From positions 1-40,358 of the forward strand of contig JAAEQP010001135.1 in NCBI GenBank assembly GCA_024231375.1: DNA of 40,358 bases, given 5' to 3'. Both the position numbers and the translations under genes were made by a program. Under the pieces are notes generated by a model, which had not been told where the DNA came from, ran no database searches, and worked only from the letters and a program-made list of their open reading frames with translations. Below are positions 2,882 to 32,928 of this stretch, piece after piece (position 1 is the first letter of the stretch; each line of letters begins with the position of its first letter). The DNA is from a bacterium. Its GTDB lineage: Bacteria > Hydrogenedentota > Hydrogenedentia > Hydrogenedentiales > SLHB01.

Positions 2882-4105
2882 ATGGCGTCACGCTGGAAAT
2901 GGCTTCGGACCATCGCCCTCATCGGACTGCTCCTCACCATGCTCTTCGTGTACTTCTTCATCGTCCGACCCGTCACCACGTATAACAAGAATCTTGAATC
3001 CTATCGCGAACTCGCGGCAATCCCAACACCCGAATCGGAGCCTCAGAACCGCGCTTCCTATTACATGGACGCCGCGTGGGTGGTAACGCCGACGCCATCA
3101 AGCCTCGGAGGGAAGCCAGAGGGAGTCGCGGTGCGGCACCCCCCCGAAGAGACTCTCGCCGAGCTTCTTAAGGGACCCGAGCGACAGCCGCCTGAGTGGG
3201 ATTCCGTTGCGCCCGACGTCGAAGCCTTCCTGGCGGTGAACGAGGCTAGCCTGGGGTACATGACGCAGGCCGGCGATCTGACGGACTGCCGCATGCCGCT
3301 TCTGTACGGACCGGGCTGTCCGGGCGGCAGCGAGTACGCGGCTGCCGAAGCGCTTGAATCGGTCGGCGACGTGCTCTTCTGGTCGACGATCGCTTCTCTC
3401 CACAAGGGCGATTACCGCGCCGCATGCAAGACCGGACTCACGAATCTCCGATTCGGCGCCGATGTTGCTTCGTTGGGTTCCAACCGTCAGGCGACGGCAG
3501 GCTTGAATATCCACGGCATGGCGTCGCGAGCGCTCGCGGAAGCACTAACGCAACATCGCCTGCCCAACGATGCACTGGCACTGCTCGAATATGGATTGCC
3601 CGAGTGCGTTTTCCCAGACAGCTTTGATGAGAAGGACGTAACCGAACATCACATACAGCACCTGAGACTCGTCAACGACAACAGCGACCCGGAACACGTT
3701 CGATGGGTTCGGGCGTTGCGGCTGCATAGAATCATCGATATTCGCTACTACAGCCACACCCAGTGGGGTCTGAGCCCATTCCCTACCGGGGTGGAGAATG
3801 CCCTCGTGTCCTACCCGTCTTCTTCTGACAAGTCATTCGACAACGGGACAGGCTTGTCCTCGGGCGTGGCCCTCTTGAGAATTGGCGTCGCCGTGCAGCG
3901 GCACCTGGGTGCCACCGGAACGCTGCCTTCGTCTCTGGAAGATCTCGTTCCCGAGTACTTGGCTGAACTCCCTGAGAATCCGGTTGGAACACCGTTCGTC
4001 GTCGAGGCGTCGGATGAGGTATTCGAAGTGGGTTGCGCGGGGGTCAGAAGCAAATACGATCCGCGCGCACTCCGCTTCGAACTGGAGACACTGCGCCAGC
4101 CATGA
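2882..4105 (+). CDS. Membrane-anchored protein of unknown function
   Basis: I do not recognise the family. The 407-residue protein starts with a short basic segment and one membrane helix (residues about 10-29), so most of it should lie outside the cytoplasm. The ATG at 2882 follows GGAGGA at good spacing; the frame is open further upstream but without a comparable start. The middle is mixed alpha-helical sequence. The last 80 residues, with GTLPSSLEDLVPEYLAELPE followed by a short beta-rich end, resemble C-terminal modules common in planctomycete-type pseudopilin and hypothetical proteins. A weak promoter may be TTGACT at 2805-2810. It is divergent from the exosortase operon and converges on the mltD-like gene with a 37-base gap. 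Confidence 0.7.
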   Translation: MASRWKWLRTIALIGLLLTMLFVYFFIVRPVTTYNKNLESYRELAAIPTPESEPQNRASYYMDAAWVVTPTPSSLGGKPEGVAVRHPPEETLAELLKGPERQPPEWDSVAPDVEAFLAVNEASLGYMTQAGDLTDCRMPLLYGPGCPGGSEYAAAEALESVGDVLFWSTIASLHKGDYRAACKTGLTNLRFGADVASLGSNRQATAGLNIHGMASRALAEALTQHRLPNDALALLEYGLPECVFPDSFDEKDVTEHHIQHLRLVNDNSDPEHVRWVRALRLHRIIDIRYYSHTQWGLSPFPTGVENALVSYPSSSDKSFDNGTGLSSGVALLRIGVAVQRHLGATGTLPSSLEDLVPEYLAELPENPVGTPFVVEASDEVFEVGCAGVRSKYDPRALRFELETLRQP

Positions 4106-4142: not shown

Positions 4143-6281
4143 CTACTTGTAGACCACGATCTTGTTGCCAATCTGCAGCACGGGCGCTTTGCTCCAGCCA
4201 TTCCATTCGAAGAGGTCCGACAGGGACACGCCGTAGCGTTTCGCGATGGTTGTGGGATTCTGGCCTCGCGCGACGACATGGACAATCTTCTTGGGGCCAC
4301 TGTCCGCCGCGGCCGAGGCCGGGCCAGCCACGCGGTACTCGTCGCCCACATGGAGTACGCTCTTCTTGTTGAGACTGTTCCAGGCCAGAAAGTTCTCCAC
4401 GCTGACGCCGTACTTCTCAGCGATGATCCAGGGGTTCTCGCCCTTGGCCACTTTGTGGGTCGTATTGGCCGACGGTGCCGCGCCGCTGCTCGCGGACGCG
4501 CCGCCGTATACGGCCAGTTTCTGACCGACGCGCAACACGGACCGTTTCGTGAGTTTGTTCCACGACATCAGGCTGGACTGGGAGACCCCGTACTTCTCGG
4601 CGATGGTCCCAATGCACTCGTTCTTGGCGACGACGTGGGTGCGTTTCTCGCCCTTCGGCGGTGCGGAAGCCGGCGCGGCGCCAGCCGCCGACACCTTGAG
4701 CTTCTGCCCGACGTAGATGCGCGACTTGGTCAGGTTGTTCCACTGCTGCAGATTGCTCACCGACACGCGTTGGCTCTTGGCGATGTCGGAGAGACAGTCG
4801 CCGCTTCGTACCGTGTACACCTTGCGTCCATCGCTGCCGGTCGAAGTGGATGCGACCGCCGTCCCACCCGATGAACTCCGCGTCACCACTCCCGGAATCA
4901 TCAAGCGTTGACCGATGCGCAGGCGCTTGGGCGAACTGATCTTGTTCACCCGCATCAGTTCGGACTGGCCCACGTGGTACCGTGACGCAATCTGAGACAC
5001 GGTGTCGCCGCGCTTCACGATGTGGAACCCCGGCTTGAGTTGGGTCACCGTGTTCAGCGCCGACGCGAATTGGGTCTTCCGCGCGGTCGGCACCATCACC
5101 GTCGACGTACCGTCCGGCGGCGTGCAGCCGTGCAGGAACTTCGGGTTCAGCGTCTTCAGGGTTCCGGATGGAAGTCCGCTCGCGCGATCCAGGTCTTGCA
5201 GGTCGTAGGACCCTTTGACCGCCACAACCACCACGTCCTCGCCCTCTTCTCCCTTCACCTCGAAGCCGAAGGCGCCCGGGCTGTTCGCCACGAGGATGGA
5301 CGCGCAAAGCTTGGGATAGAACTCCTTCGTCTCCAAACGAAGGTGCCTGTCAGCGCCTGCCGTCTCCAGCAGGCGCCACAGGTTACGCTCGCCACCACCG
5401 GCGGTAATCGCTTTCTCCAGCCCCCGCTCGCCCTTGTTGTACGCCGTGACCGCCAGCGGCCAGTTGCCGCCGAAGATGTTGTACAGGTCCTTCAGATATG
5501 CGAGGGCCGCATCGGTCGACTTCTGCCAATCCATACGCTCGTCCACATAGTGGTCGACGCGTAAGTCGTAACGCCGTCCCGTGGATGCCATGAACTGCCA
5601 CATGCCCACTGCGCCGGCTCGCGACCGGGCCTTGCTATAGAATTGGCTTTCCACCATGGCCAACCACATCAGGTCTTTCGGCAGCCCCTCTTCTTTCAGG
5701 CGAGCCTGGATGTAGGGCGCATACTTCTGGCTCCGCTCAAGGCCCGCATGGAAGCGCGTCGGGTACACCTTCAGGATCTTGTCCCGCTGCTTGGCTACAC
5801 GCTCGGGCAGGGGGTCCGGGATAGGAATGTCGCTCTGGACCAAGCCAGGCGTCTCCGAGGGGCGCCAAGGCTGTGGGGTGTCTCGTTTCGCGAGGAGTGT
5901 CTTCTCAGTGGTGACATCAATGATCTTCCCGAACTCGGAACGCAGACTGTAGAACACGTCCGGATCCAGGTCCGCTTCGATCAGCAACTCAAGCATGAGC
6001 GTGTAGTACTGGAGCGACCCTTCGTGGTCGCCGTTCTCCTGGGCCTCGTTGGCCTTGTCGAGCGCGTCCAGGGCGGCGGTCAGAAGTTCGTTGGTCGATC
6101 GAGGTTCGATGGGCTTCAGGTCTTCGCGCCCCACCTCGGCCAGGGGAACCGGGTCAAACTGGTGCGATTCCAGCGCGGGTTCGTTGGCGTTCATGGTGGT
6201 ACAACCGGTCGCGATCATCGCGACGGCCGCCAACGCAACAAGATTCCCCCGTCTCACGGGTGTCAATGTTCCCACAGTCAC
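4143..6281 (-). CDS. mltD: MltD-like membrane-bound lytic murein transglycosylase, lipoprotein with five LysM domains
   Basis: The enzyme cleaves peptidoglycan glycan strands between MurNAc and GlcNAc. The 712-residue product has a lipoprotein leader ending ATGC (Cys27), an SLT domain at about 185-310 with catalytic Glu211 in AMVESQFYSKA, then GMWQFM and AVTAYNKG. Five LysM peptidoglycan-binding domains follow at about 419-463, 488-532, 548-592, 608-652 and 667-712; E. coli MltD has two. The usual first ATG at 6335 would leave a leader of only about 7 bases from the promoter at 6349-6377, so I chose the GTG at 6281, which follows AGGAG (6286-6290); a second GTG at 6275 is equally possible. 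These starts place the signal peptide right at the N-terminus. The gene appears monocistronic. Confidence 0.9.
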   Translation of the reverse strand: MTVGTLTPVRRGNLVALAAVAMIATGCTTMNANEPALESHQFDPVPLAEVGREDLKPIEPRSTNELLTAALDALDKANEAQENGDHEGSLQYYTLMLELLIEADLDPDVFYSLRSEFGKIIDVTTEKTLLAKRDTPQPWRPSETPGLVQSDIPIPDPLPERVAKQRDKILKVYPTRFHAGLERSQKYAPYIQARLKEEGLPKDLMWLAMVESQFYSKARSRAGAVGMWQFMASTGRRYDLRVDHYVDERMDWQKSTDAALAYLKDLYNIFGGNWPLAVTAYNKGERGLEKAITAGGGERNLWRLLETAGADRHLRLETKEFYPKLCASILVANSPGAFGFEVKGEEGEDVVVVAVKGSYDLQDLDRASGLPSGTLKTLNPKFLHGCTPPDGTSTVMVPTARKTQFASALNTVTQLKPGFHIVKRGDTVSQIASRYHVGQSELMRVNKISSPKRLRIGQRLMIPGVVTRSSSGGTAVASTSTGSDGRKVYTVRSGDCLSDIAKSQRVSVSNLQQWNNLTKSRIYVGQKLKVSAAGAAPASAPPKGEKRTHVVAKNECIGTIAEKYGVSQSSLMSWNKLTKRSVLRVGQKLAVYGGASASSGAAPSANTTHKVAKGENPWIIAEKYGVSVENFLAWNSLNKKSVLHVGDEYRVAGPASAAADSGPKKIVHVVARGQNPTTIAKRYGVSLSDLFEWNGWSKAPVLQIGNKIVVYK

Positions 6282-8964: not shown

Positions 8965-9378
8965 CTATTCACCCATGACCTTGATGACCAGCCGTTTTCG
9001 GCGCTTTCCGTCGAATTCGGCGTAATACACCTGTTGCCAGGGACCCAGGTCCAACCGTCCGTCGGTGATTGGCACGATCACCTCGTGGTGAATAATGAGG
9101 CTCTTGAGGTGCGAATCGCCGTTGGTCTCGCCGGTCCGGTGATGCCGGTAATCCGGGTTGAACGGCGCAAGTCCTTCGAGCCACTCGTCGATGTCCTGGA
9201 TCAGGCCGGATTCGGCGTCGTTCACGTACACTCCGGCCGTGATGTGCATGGCACTGACCAGCACCATCCCTTCCTGGATCCCGCTCTTCTCCACCACTTT
9301 CTCAACATCACCGGTGATATTGATATATTCCCGATGCCGTTTCGTGTCGAATACCATGTACTCCGTCGCAAACTTCAT
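8965..9378 (-). CDS. yjbQ: YjbQ/UPF0047 family protein
   Basis: The 137-residue protein matches this small cytoplasmic family at full length. Conserved positions include His45 and Thr47 in SAMHITAGV, Asn53 and Glu56 in VNDAESG, the cluster from His79 to His90 with [15 protein letters not shown] (111-116) and EFDGKRRKR near the end. Some members show low thiamine-phosphate synthase activity in other bacteria, but the physiological role is not settled. The ATG overlaps the stop codon of the upstream gene in an ATGA junction and has GGAGGAG five bases before it, which shows tight translational coupling. Confidence 0.92.
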
Positions 9379-10352
9379 TGATTCTCCTCCGAACCGGGTT
9401 CTTCATCGTCCGTGATCAGTTCCACGCCGATGACGCTCTTGATACTCATGGGCACCATGACTTCCTCTTCTCCGCCGGGAACGCCGGCCATACGAACCGT
9501 GCCGGACACCTCCTGCTCAAGCTTGCTCTCCGTGGTCAGCCCATTCTCCACAGACAGGACCATGGTGCCCTTCTGGTCGCCCTTCAGGTCATAGAACATC
9601 GTCATGGGCCCCATTTGGGTCCCTTTCTCGTCGGATAAGGACTTCAACTTACCCAGGACGTCCAGTGTGACGCGTCCGTCCTCGATGGCCTTCACCGTGT
9701 ACTTCGTGTCGGTCACCATTGGTAGCCCCAGTTCCACCTCCATTTTGTGGTCCCACGAGTCGCCAACGCCGACAGGTTCCTTCGGCAGAACGTTCAGCAG
9801 CTTCTCCATGGTCTTCTCTTGCGCTTCGTCGCCGAACTGGCCCTTCATCTGCTGCAGCATCGCCCCCTCGGGGCCCGCCGATGCCGCCATTTCCTCGAAC
9901 ATCTTGTCGGCGCCTTTCACATCCGACACGTCGCCGTCGGGATGGATCTTCATGGTGATGGTTTTGCCCACCATCGCGCGAAGCGCACCCATCCCCGCCG
10001 GATCCGTCTCGGGATCCTTCGTGGAGTCGAATTGGATGCCGCCCGGCATGCCCATGCCATCCATCGACATCTTGAAGGCGTCGTAGGTGAGTTCGACATC
10101 GGCCGTGCCGTCGTCCGCGATGCCCGTGACCCGCTGGACATACTCGGTGATGATGGTCTGCACCATCGTCATCTTCGATCCCATGACCTCCTGGTTGATA
10201 TCCTGAGCGGCCGTCATCCGGTATTTGAAGACGTCGCCCTCCACAAATTTCAGCTTCAGTTGAACCTTCTCGGCGCCGTGTGCCGTGGCCGCAGCCGCCG
10301 CAACGCACGCCATAACCAACGCTACAAGTAGCAATCGTCGAGTGGACTTCAT
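9375..10352 (-). CDS. Exported DUF6263-like protein
   Basis: This 325-residue protein has a signal peptide (about 1-26, ending ATAHGA) followed by a predicted beta-rich domain. The order of motifs ([15 protein letters not shown], then [16 protein letters not shown], then [12 protein letters not shown] and a late ESKLEQEV segment) resembles exported DUF6263-type proteins of planctomycete-like bacteria, whose function is unknown. No catalytic motif is visible. Methionine is frequent in the middle ([11 protein letters not shown]). GGGGAGA lies eight bases before the ATG, and a promoter with an extended -10 lies 80 bases upstream. It is first in the operon with yjbQ and the ferredoxin reductase; why an exported protein is coupled to those two is unclear. 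Confidence 0.7.
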
Positions 10353-10536: not shown

Positions 10537-10636
10537 GTGTGCCACCTTCAAGCGGCCGCTTGTGGGTGTCAGGATTCACGATGGGCAGCCATCCCGTAGT
10601 CTGAAGACACCCACAACAGTGTTGTGGGTGGCACAC
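10537..10636. repeat. 100-base nested cruciform with two competing pairings
   Basis: Outer arms GTGTGCCACC (10537-10546) and GGTGGCACAC (10627-10636) are perfect. Inside, TTGTGGGTGTC (10560-10570) pairs with GACACCCACAA (10606-10616), and GATGG/CCATC (10580-10593) forms a small inner hairpin. The same segment CACCCACAAC (10608-10617) can instead pair with GTTGTGGGTG (10621-10630) across a 3-base loop. It lies in the 468-base gap between two divergent operons. It may be a mobile-type repeat or a structured leader; no reading frame is supported here. Confidence 0.65.
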
Positions 10637-10820
10637 TTGGGATGACTGGGTGATCGCGTGAATGATCTGCTGAGCCTAAGCACCAACGCGCCAGACCATG
10701 AACGATTAGGTACGATTGGCCCGGGCCCGCTCTTGCTTCTCGCGTTCGGCCCCGCTAGGCTCATGTATCAAGTCAGCAACGGCACGCGGGGGAAGCGAAC
10801 GGGCCCAGGAGTACGACACC

Positions 10821-11903
10821 ATGCCCTTTCGAGTCATCCAGGTCGGCACCGGCGGCTGGGGCGCCAGTTGGTGCGCCGATTTCCTGCCGCCCAATATCGC
10901 CGATGGCCTGATCGAGGTGGTCGCTGCGGTGGATGCCAATGTCGACGCTCTAGCCAATGCACGCACTCATCTCGGTCTGCGCGACGACCAATGCTACACG
11001 GACCTCGCCAAGGCCCTCGACGAGAACCCCGCGGACTTCTGCACGGTGGTCGTGCCGCCCGCGCACCACGAAGCCGTCGTCGACGCCGCACTGGCCCACG
11101 ATCTGCACATTCTGTCCGAGAAACCCATCGCCGATTCGCTGGAGGCGTCGATTCGCATTGCGGACAAGGTGTGCAACGCCAGCAAGAAGATGGGCGTCAC
11201 CATGAGCCATCGATTCCGACAAGACATCACGTCCTTGCGCAAGCTGGTCCGCTCCGGTGACTGTGGCCCCTTGGACTACGCCGTCATGCGGTTCACGTGC
11301 AACTGCCGCAAGCGCGGCCGATGGGGTGCGTTCCGTCACGAAATCCCAGACCCCTTGATGGTCGAAGGTTCCGTGCATCATCTCGATCTGCTGGCCGACC
11401 TCGTGGGCGCGAAGTGCGACACCCTGTATGCTCAGACCTGGAACCCCTCGTGGGGAGAGTTCGCGGGCGATTCCCAGGGACTCGTGACCATGCAATTCGA
11501 GAACGGCGCCCGCGCCCTGTACGAAGGAGCCAAAACCAACGCGGCGGGCTTGAACTGGTGGGGACAGGAGTACATCCGCGCGGAATGCGAACAGTCTACG
11601 CTGGTGCTTTCATGGCAGGAACTGGAGCGATTCAACTTCGCCGCGTCCGATGACAGTCTGTCGCGCCGGGAAGGGTCGGGCGACACGGTGCCGCTACTCA
11701 ACCAACCGAAATGGGCCAACACATGGCTCATCGAGCAGTTTGTCCGGTGGCTGGATGGTGGACCGCCCATGGAGACCAACGTGGAAGACAACCTGCAATC
11801 CGTGGCATTGGTGTTCGCCGCCATTGAGAGTAGTCGGACGGGCCAACCGGTCCGCGTACAGGAGTATCTGGAGCAAGCCCGCCGCGCTGTCGCGTCGGCG
11901 TGA
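10821..11903 (+). CDS. Gfo/Idh/MocA family oxidoreductase, cytoplasmic
   Basis: The family contains NAD(P)-dependent dehydrogenases acting mostly on sugars, inositols and their derivatives. The 360-residue product has a dinucleotide-binding fold starting VIQVGTGGWG (5-14), the hallmark SEKP segment (Glu100-Lys101-Pro102) and a C-terminal beta-rich domain with EGSVHHLDLL as the likely substrate site. There is no signal peptide, unlike the two related genes at 14287 and 32929. AGGAG lies nine bases before the ATG. The ThuA gene follows after only 15 bases, so they form one operon; ThuA and Gfo/Idh/MocA genes are often neighbours in sugar-using bacteria. The substrate cannot be told from sequence. 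Confidence 0.9.
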   Translation: MPFRVIQVGTGGWGASWCADFLPPNIADGLIEVVAAVDANVDALANARTHLGLRDDQCYTDLAKALDENPADFCTVVVPPAHHEAVVDAALAHDLHILSEKPIADSLEASIRIADKVCNASKKMGVTMSHRFRQDITSLRKLVRSGDCGPLDYAVMRFTCNCRKRGRWGAFRHEIPDPLMVEGSVHHLDLLADLVGAKCDTLYAQTWNPSWGEFAGDSQGLVTMQFENGARALYEGAKTNAAGLNWWGQEYIRAECEQSTLVLSWQELERFNFAASDDSLSRREGSGDTVPLLNQPKWANTWLIEQFVRWLDGGPPMETNVEDNLQSVALVFAAIESSRTGQPVRVQEYLEQARRAVASA

Positions 11904-14286: not shown

Positions 14287-15582
14287 CTACGACTCAAGCA
14301 CCCATGGCGCACGGTACGACGGCGACAGCATCTTCGAGGCCTCGGCGTCGCCGGCAATGCGTTCCTTCTTGGGGTTCCACTGGATCTTGCGGCCCGTGTA
14401 GATGGCGATGTTGCACAGGTGACCGACCGATGCCGACCGGTGTGCGACTTCGCATGGCGTGATCGTTTCTTCACGCGATTTCACGCAGTCGATGAAGTTC
14501 TTGAAGTGGTCGCGACTGTGATAGAGCCGGATTTCGTCGTCGCCGATCTGTTCGTCCAGGACGGTGGCCGGGTCGGCCTCGGTGACACTGCGCGTCACGA
14601 AGATCCAGCCATCGTCGCCGACCCACTTGGTGCCCATGGGGTACTTGCTGCCGATCTTGATGACCAGCCCGTCCTCGTAGGTGCAGGTGCAGTCATAGTC
14701 CGTTGGCGAGTTCCATAGCCCCTCGGTGGGAATCACGCCGGCGCCTTCCACGCTCACCGGACCCGTGTGGTCCAGCCCCATACCCCAGTGGGCGATGTCC
14801 AGGTGATGACCGACCCAGTCCATGATGCGGCCGCCGCCGTAGGCCATGATCCAGCGCCAGTTCTTGTGTACGCGGGCGGGACAGTACGGCGCTTCGGGCG
14901 CCGGTCCGAGCCAGCGGTCGTAGTCCAGTTCTTTCGGCGCGGGACGGAACTCGGTCTGGTCGCCGGTCTTGGCATAGTCCGAATAACCTTGCCCCAGACC
15001 GACCTCGATGTACTTCACCTTGCCAATGCGGCCGTTGCGCACCAGCTCCGCGGCATGGTGGAAGTTCTCGACGCTCCGCTGCCAACTGCCCGTCTGCCAG
15101 ATGCGCTTGTTGCGTTTCACGGCGTCGCAGATGGCGCGCCCCTCAACGAGGGTGTGAGCAAGGGGCTTCTCGCCGTAGATGTCGAGGCCCGCGTCGGCGG
15201 CGGCGATGGCCGGGATGGCGTGCCAATGGTCGGGCAACGCGATGCTGACGGCGTCCAAATCCGTGCGCGCAAGGAGATCCTCGAAACGCGCGTAGGTGTC
15301 GCAATCCTCATTGTCATAGACCGCGTCGACCATCCGCTTATTTCGGGCGAGATGCGTCTCGTCCACGTCGCATACCGCCACAACCTGCACGTCCGCGTTC
15401 CCGAGAAACTGCTTCAGGTTGCCGGGGCCCTGCCACCCAAGCCCGATGGCGCCGAGTACCACGCGCTCGCTGGGTGCGGGACGGCCTTCCCGGCCCCGTG
15501 CGCAACCCGCGAGAATGGTGGGTCCGGCGACGGCGGCCGACGCGGCGGTGAGGAAATGCCTACGACTGATCTTCGCGGTCAT
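14287..15582 (-). CDS. Gfo/Idh/MocA oxidoreductase with twin-arginine signal peptide
   Basis: The 431-residue protein carries a Tat leader (SRRHFLTAAS, with a Cys at position 27 in LAGC that may be lipidated), so it should be exported folded with its cofactor. The Rossmann motif is GLGWQG (47-52), EKP is at 138-140, and the C-terminal half has DWVGHHLDIAHWG, a conserved segment of the exported planctomycete-type subfamily. The end VAHRSASVGHLCNIA is also typical. AAGGAG lies eight bases before the ATG. The following UroD-like gene starts 18 bases downstream. Known relatives act on sugars, with NAD(P) held tightly; its substrate here is unknown. Confidence 0.9.
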   Translation of the reverse strand: MTAKISRRHFLTAASAAVAGPTILAGCARGREGRPAPSERVVLGAIGLGWQGPGNLKQFLGNADVQVVAVCDVDETHLARNKRMVDAVYDNEDCDTYARFEDLLARTDLDAVSIALPDHWHAIPAIAAADAGLDIYGEKPLAHTLVEGRAICDAVKRNKRIWQTGSWQRSVENFHHAAELVRNGRIGKVKYIEVGLGQGYSDYAKTGDQTEFRPAPKELDYDRWLGPAPEAPYCPARVHKNWRWIMAYGGGRIMDWVGHHLDIAHWGMGLDHTGPVSVEGAGVIPTEGLWNSPTDYDCTCTYEDGLVIKIGSKYPMGTKWVGDDGWIFVTRSVTEADPATVLDEQIGDDEIRLYHSRDHFKNFIDCVKSREETITPCEVAHRSASVGHLCNIAIYTGRKIQWNPKKERIAGDAEASKMLSPSYRAPWVLES

Positions 15583-15760
15583 GGTTCAACTCCTTGATAG
15601 GTAATCGGATGGTGCGAGGCCGTACGCCTCCGCCCAGACCCCGATGATGCCCCATTCCCAGCACAAAATGCGAATCTGGGCATTCGCGGCTGCAGGTCCG
15701 CGGTGTTCAGGGGCGATGAGAATGGCGGTGTGGCAGGGAGCGGGTGTTGTCCCCGGAGTC

Positions 15761-16188
15761 GAACCCATCCGGGTTCGGTCGGGAAGGGGCTGGTACCCAG
15801 GGTAGGCGCGCGTCCGAGGACGGACACATGCGCCAACCCTGGGCTTTGAGTGTCGAACCCTCCGGGTTCGGACAGATTGTGCAAAACGCCGCACAAGGGA
15901 AGCCCAATCAGTGCGCGAGGTCGCCTTGGAAGGCTGTGCGGGGTTCTTTCAGAACCCTTCGGAGGCGTGGCGTTGGGCCCAGGCCTCGCCTCAACGGCCC
16001 CGAGCCCTGGGCGTCGAACCCTCCGGGTTCTCTCAAACGCAGGCGAGGTGCCAACGGATGGACACCTCATCTGGACAGCTCAACCCGTCAGGGTTGGACA
16101 ATCAGAGCCCCAGGTTGGCGAACGTGCCTTCCGAGGCACGCGGCTACCTGGGGCCCACGAACGGAATTCTCAACAACCCGGAGGGTTG
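15761..16188. repeat. Three-fold array of palindrome - large stem-loop - palindrome units
   Basis: Small palindromes of the form GAACCC/GGGTTC or CAACCC/GGGTTG occur at 15761-15776, 15854-15870, 15941-15957, 16016-16030, 16081-16096 and 16174-16188. Three larger stem-loops lie between successive pairs: 15796-15843 (CCCAGGGTAGGCGC with GCGCCAACCCTGGG, 13 of 14 paired), 15977-16012 (GCCCAGG with CCTGGGC) and 16107-16154 (GCCCCAGGT with ACCTGGGGC). Units begin 180 and 140 bases apart. Extra hairpins lie at 15877-15896 and 16045-16068. Several palindromes are followed by GGACA. No gene occupies 15583-16238. Confidence 0.75.
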
Positions 16189-16238
16189 GACAGAGTCCTG
16201 GTAGAAGACTGCTCGGAGCGTTCTTCTAAACGGTGCTG

Positions 16239-17753
16239 TCAGTCTTCGCCGCTCTCCCCATCTGCGCGCTCCTCTTCCCCCTGTTTGCTCTCATAGGCCT
16301 CGAGAGCCGTGATGGTCTTCCGTAGTTCGCGGCGGAGTGGCCACCAGTCGCTCTCGTTTCCACCTCCAGCGACCTCGGCGTCGGCCACCGCGAGTCGCTC
16401 CCGCAGAACCGACAAGAAGAGCAGACCGACTTCGGGCACGGTATCGAACCGTAGTTGAACTTGGGCCGCTGCCGCAGTTGCGAGTCCTGGCCGGTTCGAA
16501 CCCAGTGCAGCGATCAGTATGCGCAGAGCACGTCCGGACTCAGGGGAAGCATCCAAGGCCTGCGCACGCAGGATCTCGTAATGGGCGACCGTGCTGACGG
16601 CCCCCAGGACGGCATTGTCAATGGTTCTGTCCTTGACGCCGAGATACGTGTCGATGTTCGCGATAACATGCTCACACAGGTCGAGATACTCGTCTTTCAG
16701 CGGGGATTCACCGGCAGGCGACGAGGGGGCAATGTGACGCGTGAGCCGGCGTTGAACTTGTGTGAAACGGCGGGGATCCCAGGAAGCCTCCAAGAGAATC
16801 CCCTGGGCCTCGATACTCAGCGAGTCTGCCCTCCCGAGCAGAATGCTGCTGACACTCGCCTCATAGGGGTTCGCTGGATCGGCGTAGAACCTGGCCCATT
16901 CTGCGTCGGGCAGGGCCACGATCCTTCGATACTCCGATTCGGGGACGGGTAGGTAGGGCTCGTACGGGTCCGGCGGCCCGGCATCCAACCACGCGATGCG
17001 CTTCTCCAGGATCTCCCGTCCAGCGGGCGAGTAGCGACCAGACTCGTATTCGCGTTTTAGGATACGACCCAGGCGCTCCCTTGCCGCAACTTCCTCAGCG
17101 CCCTCCAGCATGTACGACACCTGATTGGAGGCAAGGATCGAATTCAGGGAGTAGATGGCCTGAACGCGCACCGCCTCATCGGCGCTCAACAGACAGCCGC
17201 GCAGAATCCCGTCAACAAGATCCACACCCCACTCCGGCGCTATCCAGCACATGCCGAACTCGAAGTAGATGAGGTTGGGTAGAGCCCTCACAAGCCCGTC
17301 ATGCGGAAGAGGGCAGCGCTCGTCGCCGATGTGTCCGGCAATGAATCCTGCCACCCTTCTCACCAATTCATGGCGCGCATCCTCGTCGGAGCAGTCCCGG
17401 ACAACACACGCCAGGACGGTGAGCAATGCCTTGCCGCGTGCGACGGCCTCGGCTTTCGAGAAGCCTGACCGGCAACTCGCATCGCAGGTTCGCAGGAAGC
17501 CCATCTCCTCAAACTCACAGATGTCGTCGGCGGCGAGAATGGCCGCAAAGACCTCATCGAGATCCGTCAAGAGTTGCCCGTCCTCACAACGAGATCTGAG
17601 GACGGAGTGGACCTCGCGCATGCTTCCCTCGTCAAGAATCCGCGCGAACTCGGACGGCCTCCCTTCGGCACCGGCTTCCTGCGCGTTCGCCTTCGCCATC
17701 AGGCCCGTCACCAAGAGGGCCGCCATCAGAGCAGCCAGTCTGATCGATCTCAT
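16239..17753 (-). CDS. Exported protein of unknown function, helical
   Basis: I do not recognise the family. The 504-residue product has a signal peptide (about 1-24, ending AKANA) and then almost entirely helical sequence, possibly HEAT/ARM-like in parts (for example SADEAVRVQAIYSLNSIL and GLATAAAAQVQLRF). The first third is cysteine-rich (CEFEEMGFLRTCDASC), suggesting disulfides after export. The end is acidic and charged (GEEERADGESGED). AGGAGG lies about five bases before the ATG. It stands alone between the repeat array and the ABC transporter operon, 62 bases from the latter's last stop codon and in the same direction. Confidence 0.7.
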   Translation of the reverse strand: MRSIRLAALMAALLVTGLMAKANAQEAGAEGRPSEFARILDEGSMREVHSVLRSRCEDGQLLTDLDEVFAAILAADDICEFEEMGFLRTCDASCRSGFSKAEAVARGKALLTVLACVVRDCSDEDARHELVRRVAGFIAGHIGDERCPLPHDGLVRALPNLIYFEFGMCWIAPEWGVDLVDGILRGCLLSADEAVRVQAIYSLNSILASNQVSYMLEGAEEVAARERLGRILKREYESGRYSPAGREILEKRIAWLDAGPPDPYEPYLPVPESEYRRIVALPDAEWARFYADPANPYEASVSSILLGRADSLSIEAQGILLEASWDPRRFTQVQRRLTRHIAPSSPAGESPLKDEYLDLCEHVIANIDTYLGVKDRTIDNAVLGAVSTVAHYEILRAQALDASPESGRALRILIAALGSNRPGLATAAAAQVQLRFDTVPEVGLLFLSVLRERLAVADAEVAGGGNESDWWPLRRELRKTITALEAYESKQGEEERADGESGED

Positions 17754-17815: not shown

Positions 17816-20101
17816 TCACCACTGAGCAGGCATGAACTCATCCACGTCTTCCTTGGTGATGAGGTGTTTCGGAAGATAGATGACCGGCTCAAGTGCTTCG
17901 CCGTTGAACCATCGCGCGGCGGTGTGGACGGCCAATGCACCGTCGCCTTCGGCGGATTGGTAGGAGATGGCGAGGGCGTCCCCGGCTTTCACCGAGTCCA
18001 TGCCGGTCTTGCTGTTGCCCGCGGCGACGATGATGATGTCGTCGCGTCCGGCGCGGTTAATGGCTTCGAGTGCGCCGGTCATGGTGAATCCGTCGCCCGA
18101 CAGGACAAGGCCCTTCAAGTCATCGCCGAATTTCATCAACCACGCGGACACCAGTTGCATGGTGCCGTCGGTTTCGAGGTTGGCGGTGTCCATGGCGAGC
18201 ATCTTCATGTCGGGCGCGTATTCCAACAGTTCGGTCACAGGCGCGTAGGTGCGGCTGAAGAAGCACGAACTACCGGGCATGTGGCGCACGATGGCGTAGC
18301 CGCCCTGCTTGCCCATGGCGTCCGCGAAGGTCCGTGCCAGCATTCGGAACTGGCCCCAGTCGTCGGGCCCGGTCCAGGCGAGACAGTACTTCATGGCTTC
18401 GTCGCAGGGGATGGTGTTCGAGGCGACGCAGGGGATGCCCGCCCGATTGATGCGGCGGAGCAGCGGCGTGCAGGCCGTGGCGTCCACGGGCGCGAAGATA
18501 ATCATGTCGGGGCGCTCGTTGATGACCTGGTCCGTCTGCTGGGCCTGGAGGTCCATGTTCCAGTTGCCATTGAGCACCTTGGTTTCCATCCCGTAGGCCT
18601 CGGCGATGGCATGGAACCCGTTCACGTACGCTGACCAGTAGGGATGGTCGCCCGCCTTCAGTAGCACCACGCGCTTGCCTGCGGACCCGTCGTTCGGCGA
18701 CTCGGGCATGGGCGCCTTGTTCACGCGCCACCCGGCAAACTCGATGTCCCACCAATGCCCTTTGTCGGTCTCGGGCAAGGCCTTGGGATCGGCCGGCCGG
18801 TCGGGGACGTTCACCGGGTCGGATTGCGGGAACAGGTAGGGCTGTCCGTCCGTACCCTTGAGCGCAAACGCATCCATGGCACTGTCCGCTGACACGACGC
18901 CCGTGCCGCGCTGCGCGACCACTTGAACCGGTAGCGACGCGTACTTGAAGTACATGGCGGTCACGGCGACGATGGCCACGATGGCCGTACACGTGATGCA
19001 CAGCGCAATGAGCGTGAATCGGTCCCGGTTGGACATGTCGGAATCTCCTGAATCTTGTTCGGGCGGCGAGCCGCCTTCAAACACCTTGCCATCCGCCACT
19101 TCTTCCAGCAGGTTGGGGCGCTGCCCCTTGAGCAGATTGTGCCGATGGATGACGAACGCCTCGTAGAGCACCACCACGGCCAGAATCAAGCCATTGACGA
19201 AGATCTGCACCTCGAATCCGAGGCCGTAACAACTGATGCCGTGAAACAGCGTGGTCAGCATGAGCACGGCGAAGTACGATTTCAGCACGCTCCCCTTGCC
19301 GCCGGTCATAGCCGTGCCGCCAATGATGACGGCAGCCAGAACGGTCATCAGCGTGCGCGATCCGAATTCGGCGGTGGCCGCCATGGCACTCAGGCTGACG
19401 GCGAACAGGGTGCCGGCGGCGGCCGCGCTCAGACTGCACAGTACGAACCCGGCAATCAAGTACCGGTCGCGGTTCAGGCCCGCCAGCCACGCGGCCTCGG
19501 GATTGCCGCCCACCATGTAGACGTTGCGTCCGGGCCGCGTCCAACGAAGAACGGCCGACGAAGCGCCTACCAGCGCCAGCGTGATGATGACCATGGGAGG
19601 CAGCAGAGGCAGCACGGGCGCTTCGAGCCAGTCCGCCAGCCGAAAGTCGACCACGGCCTTGGACCCGCCGCCGCTGTACAGATGCATGAGGCCCGTCACG
19701 ATCGTCATGGTGCCCAGAGTCACAATGAAGGAGTTGATGCGGGCTTTGACGACCAGCAAACCGTTCACCAGCCCGACGCCGCATCCCGCGACCAGTGAAG
19801 CGACCATGGCGCCGGCCCAACCCAGAGAGGGCTGCAAGCCGATGGTCAGCATGCCGCACAACATGACGACTGCGCCGATGGAGAGGTCGAGTTGGCCCAG
19901 GATCAGGATGAGCGTGAATCCGATGGCGGCTATCGCGCTGAGACTGGCCCCCTTGAGCAAGACGGTCACGCTGTCAATCGACAGGAAGTTCGGGGCGGAG
20001 AGGGACAGGACTCCGAACAACGCGGCGAACATGATCAGGGCTCGGTGCTCGTCCAGCAGACGAAGCAGGCGCGTGAGCGCATTCACCGAGGCCCTAGGCA
20101 T
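17816..20101 (-). CDS. Fused sugar ABC permease (RbsC-type) and membrane-anchored substrate-binding protein
   Basis: The 761-residue frame is continuous. Residues about 1-325 form a complete RbsC-type inner membrane permease (ILGQLDLSIGAVVML and GGTAMTGGKGSV are family blocks). A polar linker (about 325-355) leads to a membrane helix (about 364-388), about 85 residues rich in Pro and Trp, and then a type I periplasmic sugar-binding domain (KRVVLLKAGDHPYWSAYVNG to the C-terminus). These parts are normally separate proteins. Met356, at nt 19036, has AGGAG seven bases before it, so a 406-residue binding protein could also be made alone, anchored by its own helix. The start overlaps the upstream permease stop by 8 bases. 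Ligand unknown, probably a monosaccharide. Confidence 0.85.
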   Translation of the reverse strand: MPRASVNALTRLLRLLDEHRALIMFAALFGVLSLSAPNFLSIDSVTVLLKGASLSAIAAIGFTLILILGQLDLSIGAVVMLCGMLTIGLQPSLGWAGAMVASLVAGCGVGLVNGLLVVKARINSFIVTLGTMTIVTGLMHLYSGGGSKAVVDFRLADWLEAPVLPLLPPMVIITLALVGASSAVLRWTRPGRNVYMVGGNPEAAWLAGLNRDRYLIAGFVLCSLSAAAAGTLFAVSLSAMAATAEFGSRTLMTVLAAVIIGGTAMTGGKGSVLKSYFAVLMLTTLFHGISCYGLGFEVQIFVNGLILAVVVLYEAFVIHRHNLLKGQRPNLLEEVADGKVFEGGSPPEQDSGDSDMSNRDRFTLIALCITCTAIVAIVAVTAMYFKYASLPVQVVAQRGTGVVSADSAMDAFALKGTDGQPYLFPQSDPVNVPDRPADPKALPETDKGHWWDIEFAGWRVNKAPMPESPNDGSAGKRVVLLKAGDHPYWSAYVNGFHAIAEAYGMETKVLNGNWNMDLQAQQTDQVINERPDMIIFAPVDATACTPLLRRINRAGIPCVASNTIPCDEAMKYCLAWTGPDDWGQFRMLARTFADAMGKQGGYAIVRHMPGSSCFFSRTYAPVTELLEYAPDMKMLAMDTANLETDGTMQLVSAWLMKFGDDLKGLVLSGDGFTMTGALEAINRAGRDDIIIVAAGNSKTGMDSVKAGDALAISYQSAEGDGALAVHTAARWFNGEALEPVIYLPKHLITKEDVDEFMPAQW
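19036..19049 (-). promoter_or_regulatory. Internal ribosome binding site and alternative start in the permease/binding-protein fusion
   Basis: On the minus strand AGGAG (19045-19049) precedes an ATG (19034-19036) by eight bases. The codons after it read MSNRDRFTLIALCI, a plausible membrane-anchor N-terminus. The ATG is in frame with the permease and no stop codon separates them, so fused and separate products are both possible. Confidence 0.6.
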
Positions 20102-28610: not shown

Positions 28611-29990
28611 ATGCGTATCTACAACACAGTCACCAAGAATATCGAAGAATATCAGTCGATTGAACCGGGCCGCGTCCGCATGTATACCTGCGGACCCACG
28701 GTCTACTCGTACCAGCACATCGGGAACTTGCGCGCGTACTTGTTCGCCGACCTATTGAAACGCGCTCTTCAGTTCTCGGGATACCGGGTCCTCCACGCGA
28801 TGAACATCACCGATGTGGGACACCTGACGGACGACGCGGACGCTGGCGATGACAAGGTCGAGATGGCCGCGCGCGAATCGGGTATGGACGCGTGGGCTCT
28901 CACCGAGAAGTACAAGGCCAAGTTCATGGAGGACTGCGCCGCCGTCAACGTGACGCCTCCCGACATCGTCTGCCGGGCAACGGACCATATTGATGAGCAG
29001 ATCGATTTGCTGAAGCGTCTGGACGAGCGCGGACACACATACCGGGCCGAAGACGGTCTGTACTTTGATGCGGCCTCGTTCACGCCGGTCACCGACCTGT
29101 CCAACATGGCGGTGACTGCGTCGGATGAGCATTCACGCGTGGGTACGGAAGGGAAACGATCGGGCGCCGACTTCGCCCTGTGGAAGTTCTCGCCGCCGGA
29201 CCGGAAGAGGCAGATGGAATGGCCCTCTCCGTGGGGGGCCGGATTTCCGGGATGGCACCTGGAATGCAGCGCCATGTCGATGAAGTACCTGGGCGAGACG
29301 TTCGATCTTCATACCGGCGGTGTGGATCACATCCCGGTCCACCACCCCAACGAGATCATCCAGTCCGAAGCCGCGACAGGCGTGCGGTTCGTGAACTACT
29401 GGGCTCACGGAGGCTGGCTGAGCATGGGCGACTCGGAAAAGATGTCCAAGTCCGAAGGAGGCACCCTCCTCATCGATCATCTGATTGAGCGCGGGTACGA
29501 CCCGCTCGCCTTTCGCTATCTCGTTCTGACGGCGCACTATCGAAGCCCCCTCAAATTCACGTGGGAAGCGTTGGACGCCGCCGCGAGCGCATTGCGGCGG
29601 GTTCGCGAGGAGGTCGCCTGTGCTTCAAGCCAAGCCGGGTCTGTATCCGCCCCATACATGGAGCGTTTCTCCGCGGCTCTGTCGGCCGACCTGAACACGC
29701 CGGAAGCCGTCGCGGTTCTCTGGGGTCTCGTGAAGGACTCGGATGTCAATCCGCGTGACAAGGCCGCAACCATCCTCGCCATGGACACGGTCCTCGGATT
29801 GCGCGTCCAAACCAGACCGAGTCTGGGGGTCACAGACGTGCCCACGGAGGTTCTACGCCTGGTTCAGAAAAGGCGCGAAGCCAAGGCACAACGAGAGTAC
29901 GCCGAGGCCGATGCGCTACGCGACCGCATCGGCGATCTAGGCTTTGACGTGATGGATACTCCCGACGGTCCGGCGTTGCGGAGTCAATGA
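28611..29990 (+). CDS. cysS: Cysteine--tRNA ligase
   Basis: This cytoplasmic enzyme charges tRNA-Cys using ATP. The 459-residue protein is full length for bacterial CysRS. It has HIGN (36-39), KMSKS (277-281), and zinc ligands Cys27 in YTCGPTVY, Cys219 in WHLECS, His244 and Glu248 in VHHPNEII, matching E. coli Cys28, Cys209, His234 and Glu238. The DALR-type helical domain and the C-terminal block RREAKAQREYAEADALRDR are present. It is the one clear housekeeping gene of the window and stands alone. No tRNA-Cys or 2-C-methyl-D-erythritol pathway gene is adjacent. Confidence 0.98.
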   Translation: MRIYNTVTKNIEEYQSIEPGRVRMYTCGPTVYSYQHIGNLRAYLFADLLKRALQFSGYRVLHAMNITDVGHLTDDADAGDDKVEMAARESGMDAWALTEKYKAKFMEDCAAVNVTPPDIVCRATDHIDEQIDLLKRLDERGHTYRAEDGLYFDAASFTPVTDLSNMAVTASDEHSRVGTEGKRSGADFALWKFSPPDRKRQMEWPSPWGAGFPGWHLECSAMSMKYLGETFDLHTGGVDHIPVHHPNEIIQSEAATGVRFVNYWAHGGWLSMGDSEKMSKSEGGTLLIDHLIERGYDPLAFRYLVLTAHYRSPLKFTWEALDAAASALRRVREEVACASSQAGSVSAPYMERFSAALSADLNTPEAVAVLWGLVKDSDVNPRDKAATILAMDTVLGLRVQTRPSLGVTDVPTEVLRLVQKRREAKAQREYAEADALRDRIGDLGFDVMDTPDGPALRSQ

Positions 29991-30053: not shown

Positions 30054-30101
30054 GTGGCACGGGCTTCCAGCCCGTGATCACGGCCAGGATGGCCGTGCCA
30101 C
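30054..30101. repeat. Palindromic repeat of the GTGGCACGGGCTTCCAGCCCGTG type
   Basis: Outer arms GTGGCACGG (30054-30062) and CCGTGCCAC (30093-30101) enclose two smaller hairpins, GGGC-TTCCA-GCCC and GGCC-AGGAT-GGCC, with the self-complementary CGTGATCACG (30073-30082) between them. The shape suggests a three-way junction or a mobile-type dispersed repeat. It lies 63 bases behind cysS. Confidence 0.65.
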
Positions 30102-30199: not shown

Positions 30200-32899
30200 C
30201 TACTTCTTGACGGTCTTCAGTTCCGCCATCAAGGCGTCGGCGTTCTTGCCGGCGATCTCGACTTTGGGGTTGTGGACCAGTTTCTGGAACTTGTATCGGA
30301 CGGTCTGGGGCGGTCCGACGTGGAGTTGGAGCGCGATCAAGCCGGACCGTTCGTCCTGGGTGTCGGTCTCCAGATAGGCCACGCCGAGTTGGCCGTTGAT
30401 GGCGGTCCAGATGGCCGGACCCACCGCGAGGATCTCGTACCGGTTCCACTCGCCGGGTTTGACGGCAGGTTCGGCACGGTCGGTCCAATCGAGCTTGCCT
30501 CGGCCACCCTGGTGGTACAACCGGCCCCAGACGTTCTGGCCGATGTCGCCCTGATAGCCGAAGGCCTGTTTCTTCTTGTTGATGGTCTTGGACCGGAACT
30601 GGATTCCTGAATTGGCCGTGACCGGTTCGAGCTTCACGTCGACCGCCAGGTAGAAGTCGGCGACCTCGACGTTGGACCACACATACGTGCTGTCAGGGAG
30701 CTTCTTGCCGCTGTGGCCCGTGAGGGCCCCGTCCTTGACGCGCCAGTACTTGGTCTCGCCTCCCCAACCGTCCATGTCTTTGCCGTTGAAGAACCCGGCG
30801 TCCTCGCTGGCGCTGCCGCCGAGGGTCTTGGCAATCACCGTGGCCGCTTGAAGCACTTCGGCTTTCACGGCCTCGTCGCCAAACTGAGCGAACGCCATCT
30901 CCAATGCGGCAACGGTCGGCACTTGGGCCACGCCACTCAGCACGGCCTTCTTCTCGTCCGCCGTGCCCGCCGTGGCCATCAGCGCGGCATACTGCTCCAG
31001 CAACGAACCTGCGTTCTCCTCACTCGTTTTGAGCAGCCGCACGGCCCCACGCAAGGCGAGCACCTTCACGGTGGGGTTGGGCGAAGACTTCGCCAGATCC
31101 ATCACCGTGGGCAGCGCATCGGCCGTCGGCCAGCCGCACACCACGCGTTGGGCGGTCTCCTTCACCGCGGCGTCGCTTGACGAAGCGGCCGCCAGGACCT
31201 TGTCGAAGGCCTTGGGACTCGCGGTAGCACCCAGCAAGCGCAGCACCGCAAGCTTTGCCTCGCCCTTCGCGCCGTCGACGGCACCGCAGAACGCGTCCAC
31301 GATAGACGCAGGCGCCGTGGCTGTAGTCAATTGCACTTCCTGACCTTCCAGCACGTTGCGCGTGGCCGTGATGCCGTTCGCGGTGAATTCGACCTGGAAC
31401 CGCTTCTGGACGCCGGGTGTCGGGTCGCCGAAGTTGGCGTTGTTCCCGACCACGGAGGTCGCGCCGTTGGCGACCATCTCCCGCACCTTCTCGGTGACAT
31501 CCTTGGTCTTGCCGTCAGGCAGACCGCCGTACAAGGCCTTGTGGATCTCCAGACCGGTGCTCGACCCACGTTTTGCACGAACGCAGATCGCTTCGAGCGC
31601 GCTCTCGGCAACCTGGCGTTCCTCCGCGGACGGAGCCTTGAGCAGGCCCGCCAGCAGGCGCGACGTGTCGTCCACGCCGACATGGCCTTTCAGGGCCTTC
31701 AACGCGGCCACGCGAACGCCCGCATCCGCGTCGGATTCGGCCGCTCTCATCAGTACACCGGCGGGTTCATCGATAGCGCCTTCACCAATCATGGCAACCG
31801 CCACCATACGGGCCGCGGCTTCGTTGCTCGCCAGCATGGACTCGATGGCCGCATCGCCACCTTCGACCGGGAAGTAACTCAGCGACTGCCGGGCCGCCTT
31901 GGCCAGGGCCTCGTCATCACCCCACGCCAGGGTCTGCATCACGGTCAGGGCAGGGGCGTATCCCATGCGGGTCAAGGCTTTCAACGCCGCAACGCGCACG
32001 TCCGTGGGTCCATCCTGCGCTTCGGCCAGCAGTGCGGGTCCAGCCGCTTCGCCGCCGCGCGCACCCAACACGTCAATGAGTCGAATCTTGACGTTCGCGG
32101 GCAACGGCGCCAAGGCCAGGGCCAGCGCGCCGGAGGCCGTGTCGCCACCGGGCATCTCGCGGCCGGCGCGGAGGGCCGCGTCGATCATGAGCCCGTCGCC
32201 ACTCTTGAGCGCCTCCACCAGCAGTGGCGTGCCCTGCTTGGGACCACGGCTCAACGCGGCGCCACGGAGCGCGGCCGTACGCACCTCGACGGGCGCCTTC
32301 GGCACGGTACGCAGGTAGTCGTAGACCGCCATCGCTTTTTCGGGTTGCCCGTTCTTCATCGCGGCTTCCGCGCAATCGAGCAGCGCATCGCACACCACCT
32401 GCATCGTGCCGGCGGCGTCACCCACTTTGGCGGCGGCACTAATCAACGCCTGTGTCGCCTCGGGCGTGGCGAGTTGGCCCAGGGCATGAGCAGCCGCCTG
32501 TACGATGCCTGCGTCCGCATCGGACAGCAGTGCAATGAAGGTGGGGACGGCCGTCGCGTCACCGCGGGCCGCTACCGAACCGATCACGCCAATCTTGAGG
32601 TTGCCGGTGGTCGTGTCGAGGGCAGCGCGCAGGGCGTCGCCCGCCTCGGCACACGGCATGGCTTCCAACGCCAGCCGCGCCATATGGGCCATATCCTCGT
32701 CGGTTAGCAGCGCCGCCAACGCGGGCACGGCCTCGGGGCCGCCCTGCAACTGAAGTGTGCGGCAGGCTTCCGACTTGTCCCAGTGGGATGCGTCAGACTG
32801 CAACACGGCAACGGGATCGGCGTCCTGCGCCAACGCGGGCGCGACAACGGCAAGGAACAGCGCCCCTGCCAAAACAAGCGGCACAAATGCATTCCGCAT
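30200..32899 (-). CDS. Secreted HEAT-repeat protein fused to a DUF1080 (3-keto-disaccharide hydrolase-like) domain
   Basis: The 899-residue protein has a signal peptide (about 1-24, ending APALA). Residues about 30-460 and 540-690 are HEAT/PBS-lyase-like repeats (for example IVQAAAHALGQLATPEATQA and ADAGVRVAALKALKGHVG). Residues about 702-878 form a concanavalin-like DUF1080 domain: FFNGKDMDGWGG, YWRVKDGALTG, GIQFRS, GEWNRYEILAVG and GLIALQLHVG. Characterised DUF1080 proteins hydrolyse 3-keto-glucosides, a reaction that fits the exported oxidoreductase encoded just upstream. AAAGGAG lies eight bases before the ATG at 32899; an earlier ATG at 32935 overlaps the upstream stop. The HEAT part may hold the hydrolase in a complex. 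Confidence 0.88.
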   Translation of the reverse strand: MRNAFVPLVLAGALFLAVVAPALAQDADPVAVLQSDASHWDKSEACRTLQLQGGPEAVPALAALLTDEDMAHMARLALEAMPCAEAGDALRAALDTTTGNLKIGVIGSVAARGDATAVPTFIALLSDADAGIVQAAAHALGQLATPEATQALISAAAKVGDAAGTMQVVCDALLDCAEAAMKNGQPEKAMAVYDYLRTVPKAPVEVRTAALRGAALSRGPKQGTPLLVEALKSGDGLMIDAALRAGREMPGGDTASGALALALAPLPANVKIRLIDVLGARGGEAAGPALLAEAQDGPTDVRVAALKALTRMGYAPALTVMQTLAWGDDEALAKAARQSLSYFPVEGGDAAIESMLASNEAAARMVAVAMIGEGAIDEPAGVLMRAAESDADAGVRVAALKALKGHVGVDDTSRLLAGLLKAPSAEERQVAESALEAICVRAKRGSSTGLEIHKALYGGLPDGKTKDVTEKVREMVANGATSVVGNNANFGDPTPGVQKRFQVEFTANGITATRNVLEGQEVQLTTATAPASIVDAFCGAVDGAKGEAKLAVLRLLGATASPKAFDKVLAAASSSDAAVKETAQRVVCGWPTADALPTVMDLAKSSPNPTVKVLALRGAVRLLKTSEENAGSLLEQYAALMATAGTADEKKAVLSGVAQVPTVAALEMAFAQFGDEAVKAEVLQAATVIAKTLGGSASEDAGFFNGKDMDGWGGETKYWRVKDGALTGHSGKKLPDSTYVWSNVEVADFYLAVDVKLEPVTANSGIQFRSKTINKKKQAFGYQGDIGQNVWGRLYHQGGRGKLDWTDRAEPAVKPGEWNRYEILAVGPAIWTAINGQLGVAYLETDTQDERSGLIALQLHVGPPQTVRYKFQKLVHNPKVEIAGKNADALMAELKTVKK

Positions 32900-32928
32900 G
32901 GTCGTTCGTTCTCCTTTCACATCAATTC

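Follow-up and report, generated by a model that had tools for sequence, protein, structure and literature searches.

The hairpin array described here, part of a window of 40,358 nucleotides (the whole stretch of DNA analysed), very probably consists of three copies, two clear and one degenerate, of a REP-like, non-autonomous element of about 115 nucleotides, whose cognate enzyme in other genomes is a little-studied HUH/Y1 tyrosine transposase of single-stranded DNA, a TnpA with the motif Y---Q--HH. By the tests made, the array is not an Rfam RNA, not a CRISPR and not a canonical GTAG REP. The element is most likely a small passenger that the Y---Q--HH transposase would have mobilised and spread.

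The cluster is located in a spacer between two minus-strand genes. Its features, with scores from the covariance model R1 (see below), are:

14287-15582, minus strand: GFO/IDH/MocA oxidoreductase gene, left neighbour of the spacer
15583..16238, no strand assigned: spacer of 656 bp containing the cluster, between two minus-strand genes
15750..15877, plus strand: unit A, complete triple-hairpin element (R1, 56.1 bits, E 9.2e-12)
15760..15777, plus strand: 5' small palindrome of unit A, 7-bp stem
15796..15843, plus strand: central hairpin of unit A, CCCAGGGTAG...CAACCCTGGG, with an A.A mismatch and the 3' foot CTTT
15854..15870, plus strand: 3' small palindrome of unit A, 7-bp stem
15931..16038, plus strand: unit B, degenerate, without the GGTAG/CAACC core (R1, 13.6 bits, E 0.069)
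15941..15957, plus strand: 5' small palindrome of unit B
15977..16012, plus strand: central hairpin of unit B, GCCCAGG...CCTGGGC
16016..16030, plus strand: 3' small palindrome of unit B
16073..16198, minus strand: unit C, complete, inverted with respect to A (R1, 34.1 bits, E 1.2e-6)
16174..16188, minus strand: 5' small palindrome of unit C
16107..16154, minus strand: central hairpin of unit C, CCCCAGGTAG...CAACCTGGGG
16081..16096, minus strand: 3' small palindrome of unit C
16239-17753, minus strand: gene for an orphan 504-aa protein, right neighbour of the spacer

The order of small palindrome, CCAGG-type stem-loop and small palindrome is seen three times, in units A, B and C, as the first-pass annotation had claimed; between 15741 and 16200 there are four perfect hairpins of at least 7 bp, compared with a mean of 0.15 and a maximum of two in 1000 dinucleotide shuffles. 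Its description of three like units holds for A and C, which are clear, but C is inverted with respect to A and B, and B lacks the GGTAG/CAACC core. Units A and C are inverted relatives with 37-nt inverted arms (81%), and in both the small palindrome is followed by a spacer, a CCCAGGG- or CCCCAGG-type stem, TAG, the apical stem, CAACC, the closing stem, GGGCT, about 10 nt and the second small palindrome. Membership of unit B is weakly supported by its E-value, yet it is the third-best R1 match of the 40 kb and lies inside the cluster.

The cluster has the order + + -, as opposed to the -+ pair usual in the family. The complementary-strand foot of the hairpin in the centre is AAAG in unit A, AGAG in unit C if the outermost G-C pair is omitted, and neither NTAG nor NNAG in unit B. 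A profile search that recovers three control genes finds no Y1 gene in the 40-kb window. From the AAAG and AGAG feet, the order of the units and the missing gene, the copies in the window are probably relics or rearranged copies; with no Y1 gene nearby, their tie to tnpA is one of homology.

The fold of 15740-16255 has a z-score of -5.9 against shuffles and that of 15583-16255, on the minus strand, a z-score of -6.9 (20 shuffles). Five open reading frames of 97-163 aa overlap the array; the one that was searched, 15579-16070 on the minus strand, has no Pfam match. An Rfam search of the window gave no family at gathering level, a tRNA gene search found none, and plasmid records yielded a single 26-nt match with an E-value of 0.5. 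Identical, evenly spaced direct repeats are absent, in agreement with the earlier judgement that this is not a CRISPR array.

Model R1 was built from a 60-row alignment (A1) from which the window was excluded, and was given a short calibration, so its E-values are rough. The search of the window, run with filters off, recovers units A and C and, at the E-value listed above, B, which answers the suggestion in the first-pass annotation that a covariance model be built and searched with. The 60 seed rows were selected for the presence of both palindromes and an apical part of 12-17 nt, one per locus; because of this selection by structure, pair counts based on the model lean towards structure. 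In A1, 90.3% of the cells are paired, compared with 23-52% in slid controls (maximum 51.8%) and 77% in shuffles, and both sides have changed in 18 of the 25 pairs, so the stems are indeed kept despite sequence change, as had been proposed. Covariation measured as further pair types, one of five measures, was equalled in 20 of 500 shuffles.

A count independent of the choice of seeds was made on 126 distinct apical segments, two of them from the window, which were found with a search pattern that prescribed the GTAG/CAAC core and most of the outer stem. Apical pairs 1-6 are Watson-Crick or G.T in 65-88% of these segments; pairs 1-5 exceed the maximum of 1000 shuffles and pair 6 equals it. Among 672 apical pairs there are 8 G.T pairs and 19 A.C mismatches; for the full set of 25 pairs in A1 the counts are 12 and 33. 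If selection acted on an RNA hairpin of the modelled strand, G.U should be favoured over A.C, and the lack of such an excess suggests structure at the DNA level. The covariation pattern may thus be said to fit DNA hairpins better than RNA.

The common plan of the element is a small palindrome, about 20-25 nt, the central hairpin, a CT(A) foot, about 8 nt and a second small palindrome. Of 152 units found by the pattern, 145 (including two from the window) were kept, those within 120 nt of an end being dropped. An upstream palindrome with a stem of at least 5 bp occurs within 60 nt in 116 of the 145 (18% of control 60-mers), and a downstream one within 40 nt in 128 (11% of control 40-mers), at clustered distances. 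As the pattern is blind to the flanks, the small-large-small order characterises the whole family and not just the window.

Copies of the element are found in many other bacteria. The degenerate pattern, derived from units A and C and expected 0.00 times in shuffles of the window, matches at least 115 loci in a scan of genome contigs, which is a sample covering many phyla. Judged by title, the loci belong to Verrucomicrobia, Planctomycetota, Hydrogenedentota, Lentisphaerae, Kiritimatiellota, Acidobacteria and Sumerlaeota, as well as to Prevotella, other Bacteroidales and sulfate reducers such as Desulforapulum and Desulfonatronum. In a viral collection, three contigs (L116, L117 and L118) carry the element. 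The loci from Prevotella sp. P5-108 (L015, L035, L044, L091 and L115) have an extra conserved motif similar to TAACGCCTTCGGCTAA just upstream of the 5' small palindrome, and in a Desulforapulum metagenome-assembled genome (G020; L270, 1497-1642 and 1890-1980) the sequences adjoining element pairs are also repeated in the genome.

The transposase was sought in 20 element-bearing genomes, chosen by hand for phylum spread, one per locus for 20 loci, with 150 candidates scored by R1 in each. All 20 have matches to PF01797 (Y1_Tnp) and each has 6-131 R1 matches at an E-value of 0.01; as the genomes were selected for having the element, the PF01797 result in 20 of 20 is by itself no test. A first reading of these matches as classical RAYTs was dropped once the motif at the tyrosine was read. 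We examined 101 of the 116 PF01797 matches, the 15 omitted being second pieces of genes or among the weakest, and classed the genes by the motif at the catalytic tyrosine, which left 16 of the 101 unclassable.

An element is present within 500 bp of 41 of the 45 Y---Q--HH tnpA genes at an E-value of 0.01 (43 at 0.1), and of 6 of the 16 unclassed genes. In the same 20 genomes, none of the 34 Y---NP (RAYT-type) genes and none of the six Y---Q (IS200-type) genes has an element within that distance; for Y---Q--HH versus the two other types together, a one-sided Fisher test gives 5e-20. Overlapping weaker hits on the opposite strand and three weak hits (two at L130, one at L179) are omitted here, which leaves the counts unchanged. 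At recA control loci of the same genomes there are no elements at 0.01 (0 of 20), and one match at 0.038. The check for a REP-associated tyrosine transposase proposed by the first-pass annotation therefore led to a relative, the Y---Q--HH enzyme, while the classical Y---NP type does not accompany the element.

The elements are also arranged in an ordered way around the genes. With hits at an E-value of 0.1, 33 of 40 nearest left-hand elements are on the minus strand and 34 of 37 nearest right-hand ones on the plus strand; the loci were not turned to the orientation of the gene, but the minus-left, plus-right order is unaffected by turning. Both a left-minus and a right-plus element are present at only 22 of the 45 genes at 0.01 and at 28 of the 45 at 0.1, and two of the 45 are without any element even at 0.1.

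Two broader samples were surveyed. Among 79 evenly drawn Verrucomicrobiota genomes, seven have the gene at more than 90 bits (one of them the chosen centre), and R1 hits at 1e-5 occur in three of these seven and, as one or two weak hits, in two of the other 72. Stricter filters were used here (47 candidates scored per genome). As R1 knows mainly one variant, absent hits are no proof that the element is absent, and the link between gene and element at genome level in Verrucomicrobiota is only suggestive. At Bacteroidota tnpA loci, inverted similarity between the flanks is clearly above ten shuffles in 14 of 30 and not in the other 16; several of the 14 have paired small palindromes without a clear central hairpin.

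The partner proteins are about 150 aa long and contain DH[VIA]H, WQ and Y---Q--HH motifs; some have DHAH or DHLH and one has NHVH, and some of the matches are partial. According to PMC6006769, TnpA_Y1 subclass 1.2 is characterised by DH[IV]H, WQ, YIKNQKEHH and a length of 148 aa, with the entry "REP: no"; this 2018 survey places it mostly in Cyanobacteria and Bacteroidetes and describes it as generally without typical IS200 terminal structures. By motifs and length, the partner tnpA fits subclass 1.2. A tree was built from 64 of the 101 domains (40 of the 45 Y---Q--HH, 15 of the 34 Y---NP, four of the six Y---Q and five of the 16 unclassed); in it, the 40 Y---Q--HH and four Y---Q domains are on one side of a branch with support values of 100/98, and all 15 Y---NP domains are on the opposite side. 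The Y---Q--HH label needs three changes on this tree, so a single clade is unsupported. Of five Y---Q--HH proteins compared with NCBIfam, three pass the cut-off for IS200/IS605 transposases and two match below it, while none of the five reaches that of the REP-associated model. By sequence, the solved structures nearest to these proteins are listed as transposase and ISHp608 transposase. A profile of eight Y---Q--HH proteins matches, by profile and not by motif, at an E-value of 1e-25 in 67 of the 148 genomes of a Bacteroidota sample, its centre included. Among open-licence papers in PMC, none was found that links subclass 1.2 to a repeat.

Elements beside different Y---Q--HH genes have the plan in common, but their sequences much less so, and each variant tends to go with its gene. 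Thirty genes (28 Y---Q--HH and two unclassed) have elements on both sides; their left and right copies are 74% identical (median), versus 58% for copies across genes, a value that is also 58% across genes within one genome. The best match of a copy is its own partner in 23 of the 30 genes, where about one is expected. Small palindromes of at least 5 bp are present in the first 35 nt of 47 of 60 tnpA-flanking elements and in the last 35 nt of 45, compared with 40 of 600 control stretches within genes. Read on the complementary strand, the central hairpin has an NTAG foot in 35 of 58 elements and an NNAG foot in 46 of 58, where TAG at a fixed place would be expected by chance in about 1.3%; the foot is exactly GTAG in only 12 of 58. 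As GT[AG]G turns up at some position of one strand or the other in 52 of 60, this motif is present, only not fixed at the foot. The core of one variant, searched in six genomes with up to two mismatches, is found at 45 places in the genome G018, which has a gene with this variant, and at 0-5 places in the other five, including five and four places in the two genomes where genes carry the exact form.

Many elements occur as pairs. Among 107 R1 elements at 50 pattern loci (picked from 118, favouring several matches and phylum spread; 7 of 114 hits, overlapping on the opposite strand, were dropped), neighbours at most 700 nt apart are arranged -+ in 36 cases, +- in nine and ++ in three, so that 36 of 48 adjacent pairs would fit the inverted doublet of REPINs and BIMEs, a layout from which the + + - order of the window departs. 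The gap of the -+ pairs measures -5 to 94 nt (31 pairs) or 462-579 nt (five pairs); three of the five long gaps contain a Y---Q--HH gene and two do not. Gene-bearing and gene-less pairs thus have a layout in common.

Sites with and without a pair can be compared in Ereboglobus. A 9-kb stretch (L269) of G012, the genome behind L101, contains inverted pairs at 1449-1692 (site 1) and 3163-3415 (site 2). In G308, of the same genus, site 1 has flanks that are 94% and 96% identical and lacks the pair (352 nt versus 36), and site 2, with flanks of 96% and 82%, also lacks it (325 nt versus 3). In a further genome, G309, the pair of site 2 is absent as well (336 nt versus 29). Two of the three pairs in the stretch were compared in this way, the third being among tandem paralogues. 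Aligned with one another, nine copies of the pair from G012 match for roughly 280 nt, beyond which their sequences diverge. Deletion could account for the empty sites, though at site 2 the pair is absent from two relatives. In the same stretch, 468-534 and 5936-6141 (about 65 and 200 nt) have matches at many places of either strand in genomes of the genus and are probably other repeat families.

A mechanism may be proposed for the movement of the element. Most likely, its hairpins would form when the strand is single; IS200/IS605 elements are described in PMC6006769 as using the lagging-strand template. Recognition by the Y---Q--HH enzyme would involve the central hairpin, to which it would bind, and the NTAG foot on the complementary strand; in a proposed step, it would cut with its tyrosine. 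It would move the inverted pair, in trans where the gene is absent, as a RAYT is thought to do for a REPIN, a comparison that we take from PMC8266576 and PMC3116915. The two small palindromes, which are constant outer parts of the element, may mark the ends. We further consider it likely that subclass 1.2, on record as a group of enzymes with no recognised DNA ends, is the motor of its own composite three-hairpin mobile repeats in several phyla, that enzyme and hairpin have diversified together, and that the inverted pairs are MITE-like.

Several described systems share features with the family. The GTAG elements known as REPs, REPINs and REPtrons, whose enzyme is a class 2 TnpA_REP (RAYT), are likewise short, palindromic and multicopy, form inverted doublets and have a cognate HUH/Y1 gene flanked by the element, with variants that go with the gene; the present family has three hairpins instead of one, its partner is Y---Q--HH and not Y---NP, and its foot is more often NTAG than exactly GTAG. 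Subclass 1.2 enzymes resemble the partner in length (about 150 aa), in the DH[VIA]H, WQ and Y---Q--HH motifs and in having profile relatives in Bacteroidota. In contrast to the "REP: no" entry of PMC6006769, most Y---Q--HH genes analysed here carry a flanking element, and the 20 genomes add several phyla to the Cyanobacteria and Bacteroidetes given there. IS200/IS605 (subclass 1.1) elements have a related transposase, judging by the closest solved structures and by the tree, and hairpins adjoining the gene. However, IS200 ends are described in PMC6006769 as small subterminal hairpins, the Y---Q genes are not flanked by the present element (0 of 6), and many element pairs have no gene between them. 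TIRtrons and TIRYTs (PMC3733652) also have a Y1 gene within longer inverted structures, some with dispersed family members, and a GGGGWSAS motif is recorded for them; but of the 26 TIRYTs assigned in PMC6006769, 20 are in subclass 2.1, four in 2.2 and two in 2.5, with none in 1.2. An attC/integron origin was considered and dropped, there being no cassette open reading frames between the hairpins.

The first-pass annotation had offered a structured RNA as one of its readings. An RNA of the GFO/IDH/MocA gene or the spacer, whether a regulatory leader or non-coding, would agree with the strong folding, which is found on both strands, and with the position of the array in the spacer upstream of 14287-15582. 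Such an RNA is nevertheless very unlikely: with E-values of up to 10 allowed, Rfam gives a match of 20 bits (cut-off 34.7) outside the units and one of 13.9 (cut-off 35.6) to part of unit A, the stems have no preference for RNA-type wobble pairs, and copies occur on either strand, lie beside tnpA genes and differ in their presence between relatives. This difference in presence argues against an essential site, and we regard it as unlikely that the units are regulatory or chromosome-structure sites, such as protein-binding sites, terminators or mRNA stabilisers of whatever origin; these roles are known or proposed for REPs (PMC2817692, PMC3733652) and would be compatible with a mobile origin.

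A further rival is a canonical GTAG REP or BIME moved by a class 2 RAYT (TnpA_REP). GGTAG is present in the central hairpin of this subfamily, GT[AG]G in most tnpA-flanking elements, and copy number and inverted doublets are REP-like; GTAG REPs are also described from PVC bacteria, including O. terrae and R. baltica, in PMC3733652, and one family of that paper may overlap the central hairpin. What makes this quite unlikely to be the explanation is that the Y---NP genes of the same genomes are never flanked, that units A and C carry GTAG within the stem, and that the complementary foot is seldom exactly GTAG. A chance or decayed tandem duplication, to which the degenerate unit B and the irregular spacing of the cluster might point, can practically be dismissed, given the hits of the window-free model, the copies in other phyla and the covariation; the absence of further copies and of covariation, by which the first-pass annotation would have recognised such a duplication, was not what we found. 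Its suggestion of a REP/BIME-like transposase substrate, on the other hand, is well supported by the copies in many genomes, the covariation and the specific association with a transposase.

The reading as a passenger of the Y---Q--HH transposase gives an identity to a repeat of the window that has no Rfam match, and proposes a candidate substrate for a subclass of transposases listed as without a REP. If true, this would make a second system of the REP type, one belonging to the IS200 side of the Y1 family and not to the RAYT side. How REP elements spread is described as an open question in PMC8266576, and a second pairing of enzyme and repeat would allow a direct test, by comparison, of the way in which folded single-stranded DNA is read by Y1 enzymes. 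The three-hairpin substrate is unusual, and many of its natural variants sit beside their genes.

Elsewhere in the window, the 504-aa protein encoded to the right of the array has an N-terminal stretch resembling a signal peptide and no Pfam match. No relative was found in the scan of genome contigs or in 68 genomes of the phylum of a Hydrogenedentota genome, and a protein search returned only the protein itself. The gene 17816-20101 (minus strand) encodes a 761-aa protein that combines, in a single chain, an ABC permease domain with a periplasmic binding domain. The cysteinyl-tRNA synthetase (28611-29990, plus strand) has matches in 58 of 60 sampled genomes from several phyla, at no more than 45% identity; the best-scoring full-length matches in the 60 genomes are 41-44% identical. 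Between this gene and the convergent 30200-33541 (minus strand) there are two adjacent perfect 8-bp hairpins, at 30058-30076 and 30079-30097, which are perhaps a terminator. A perfect 10-bp hairpin, CACCCACAAC-AGT-GTTGTGGGTG, is located at 10608-10630, between the divergent 9375-10352 (minus strand) and 10716-11903 (plus strand).
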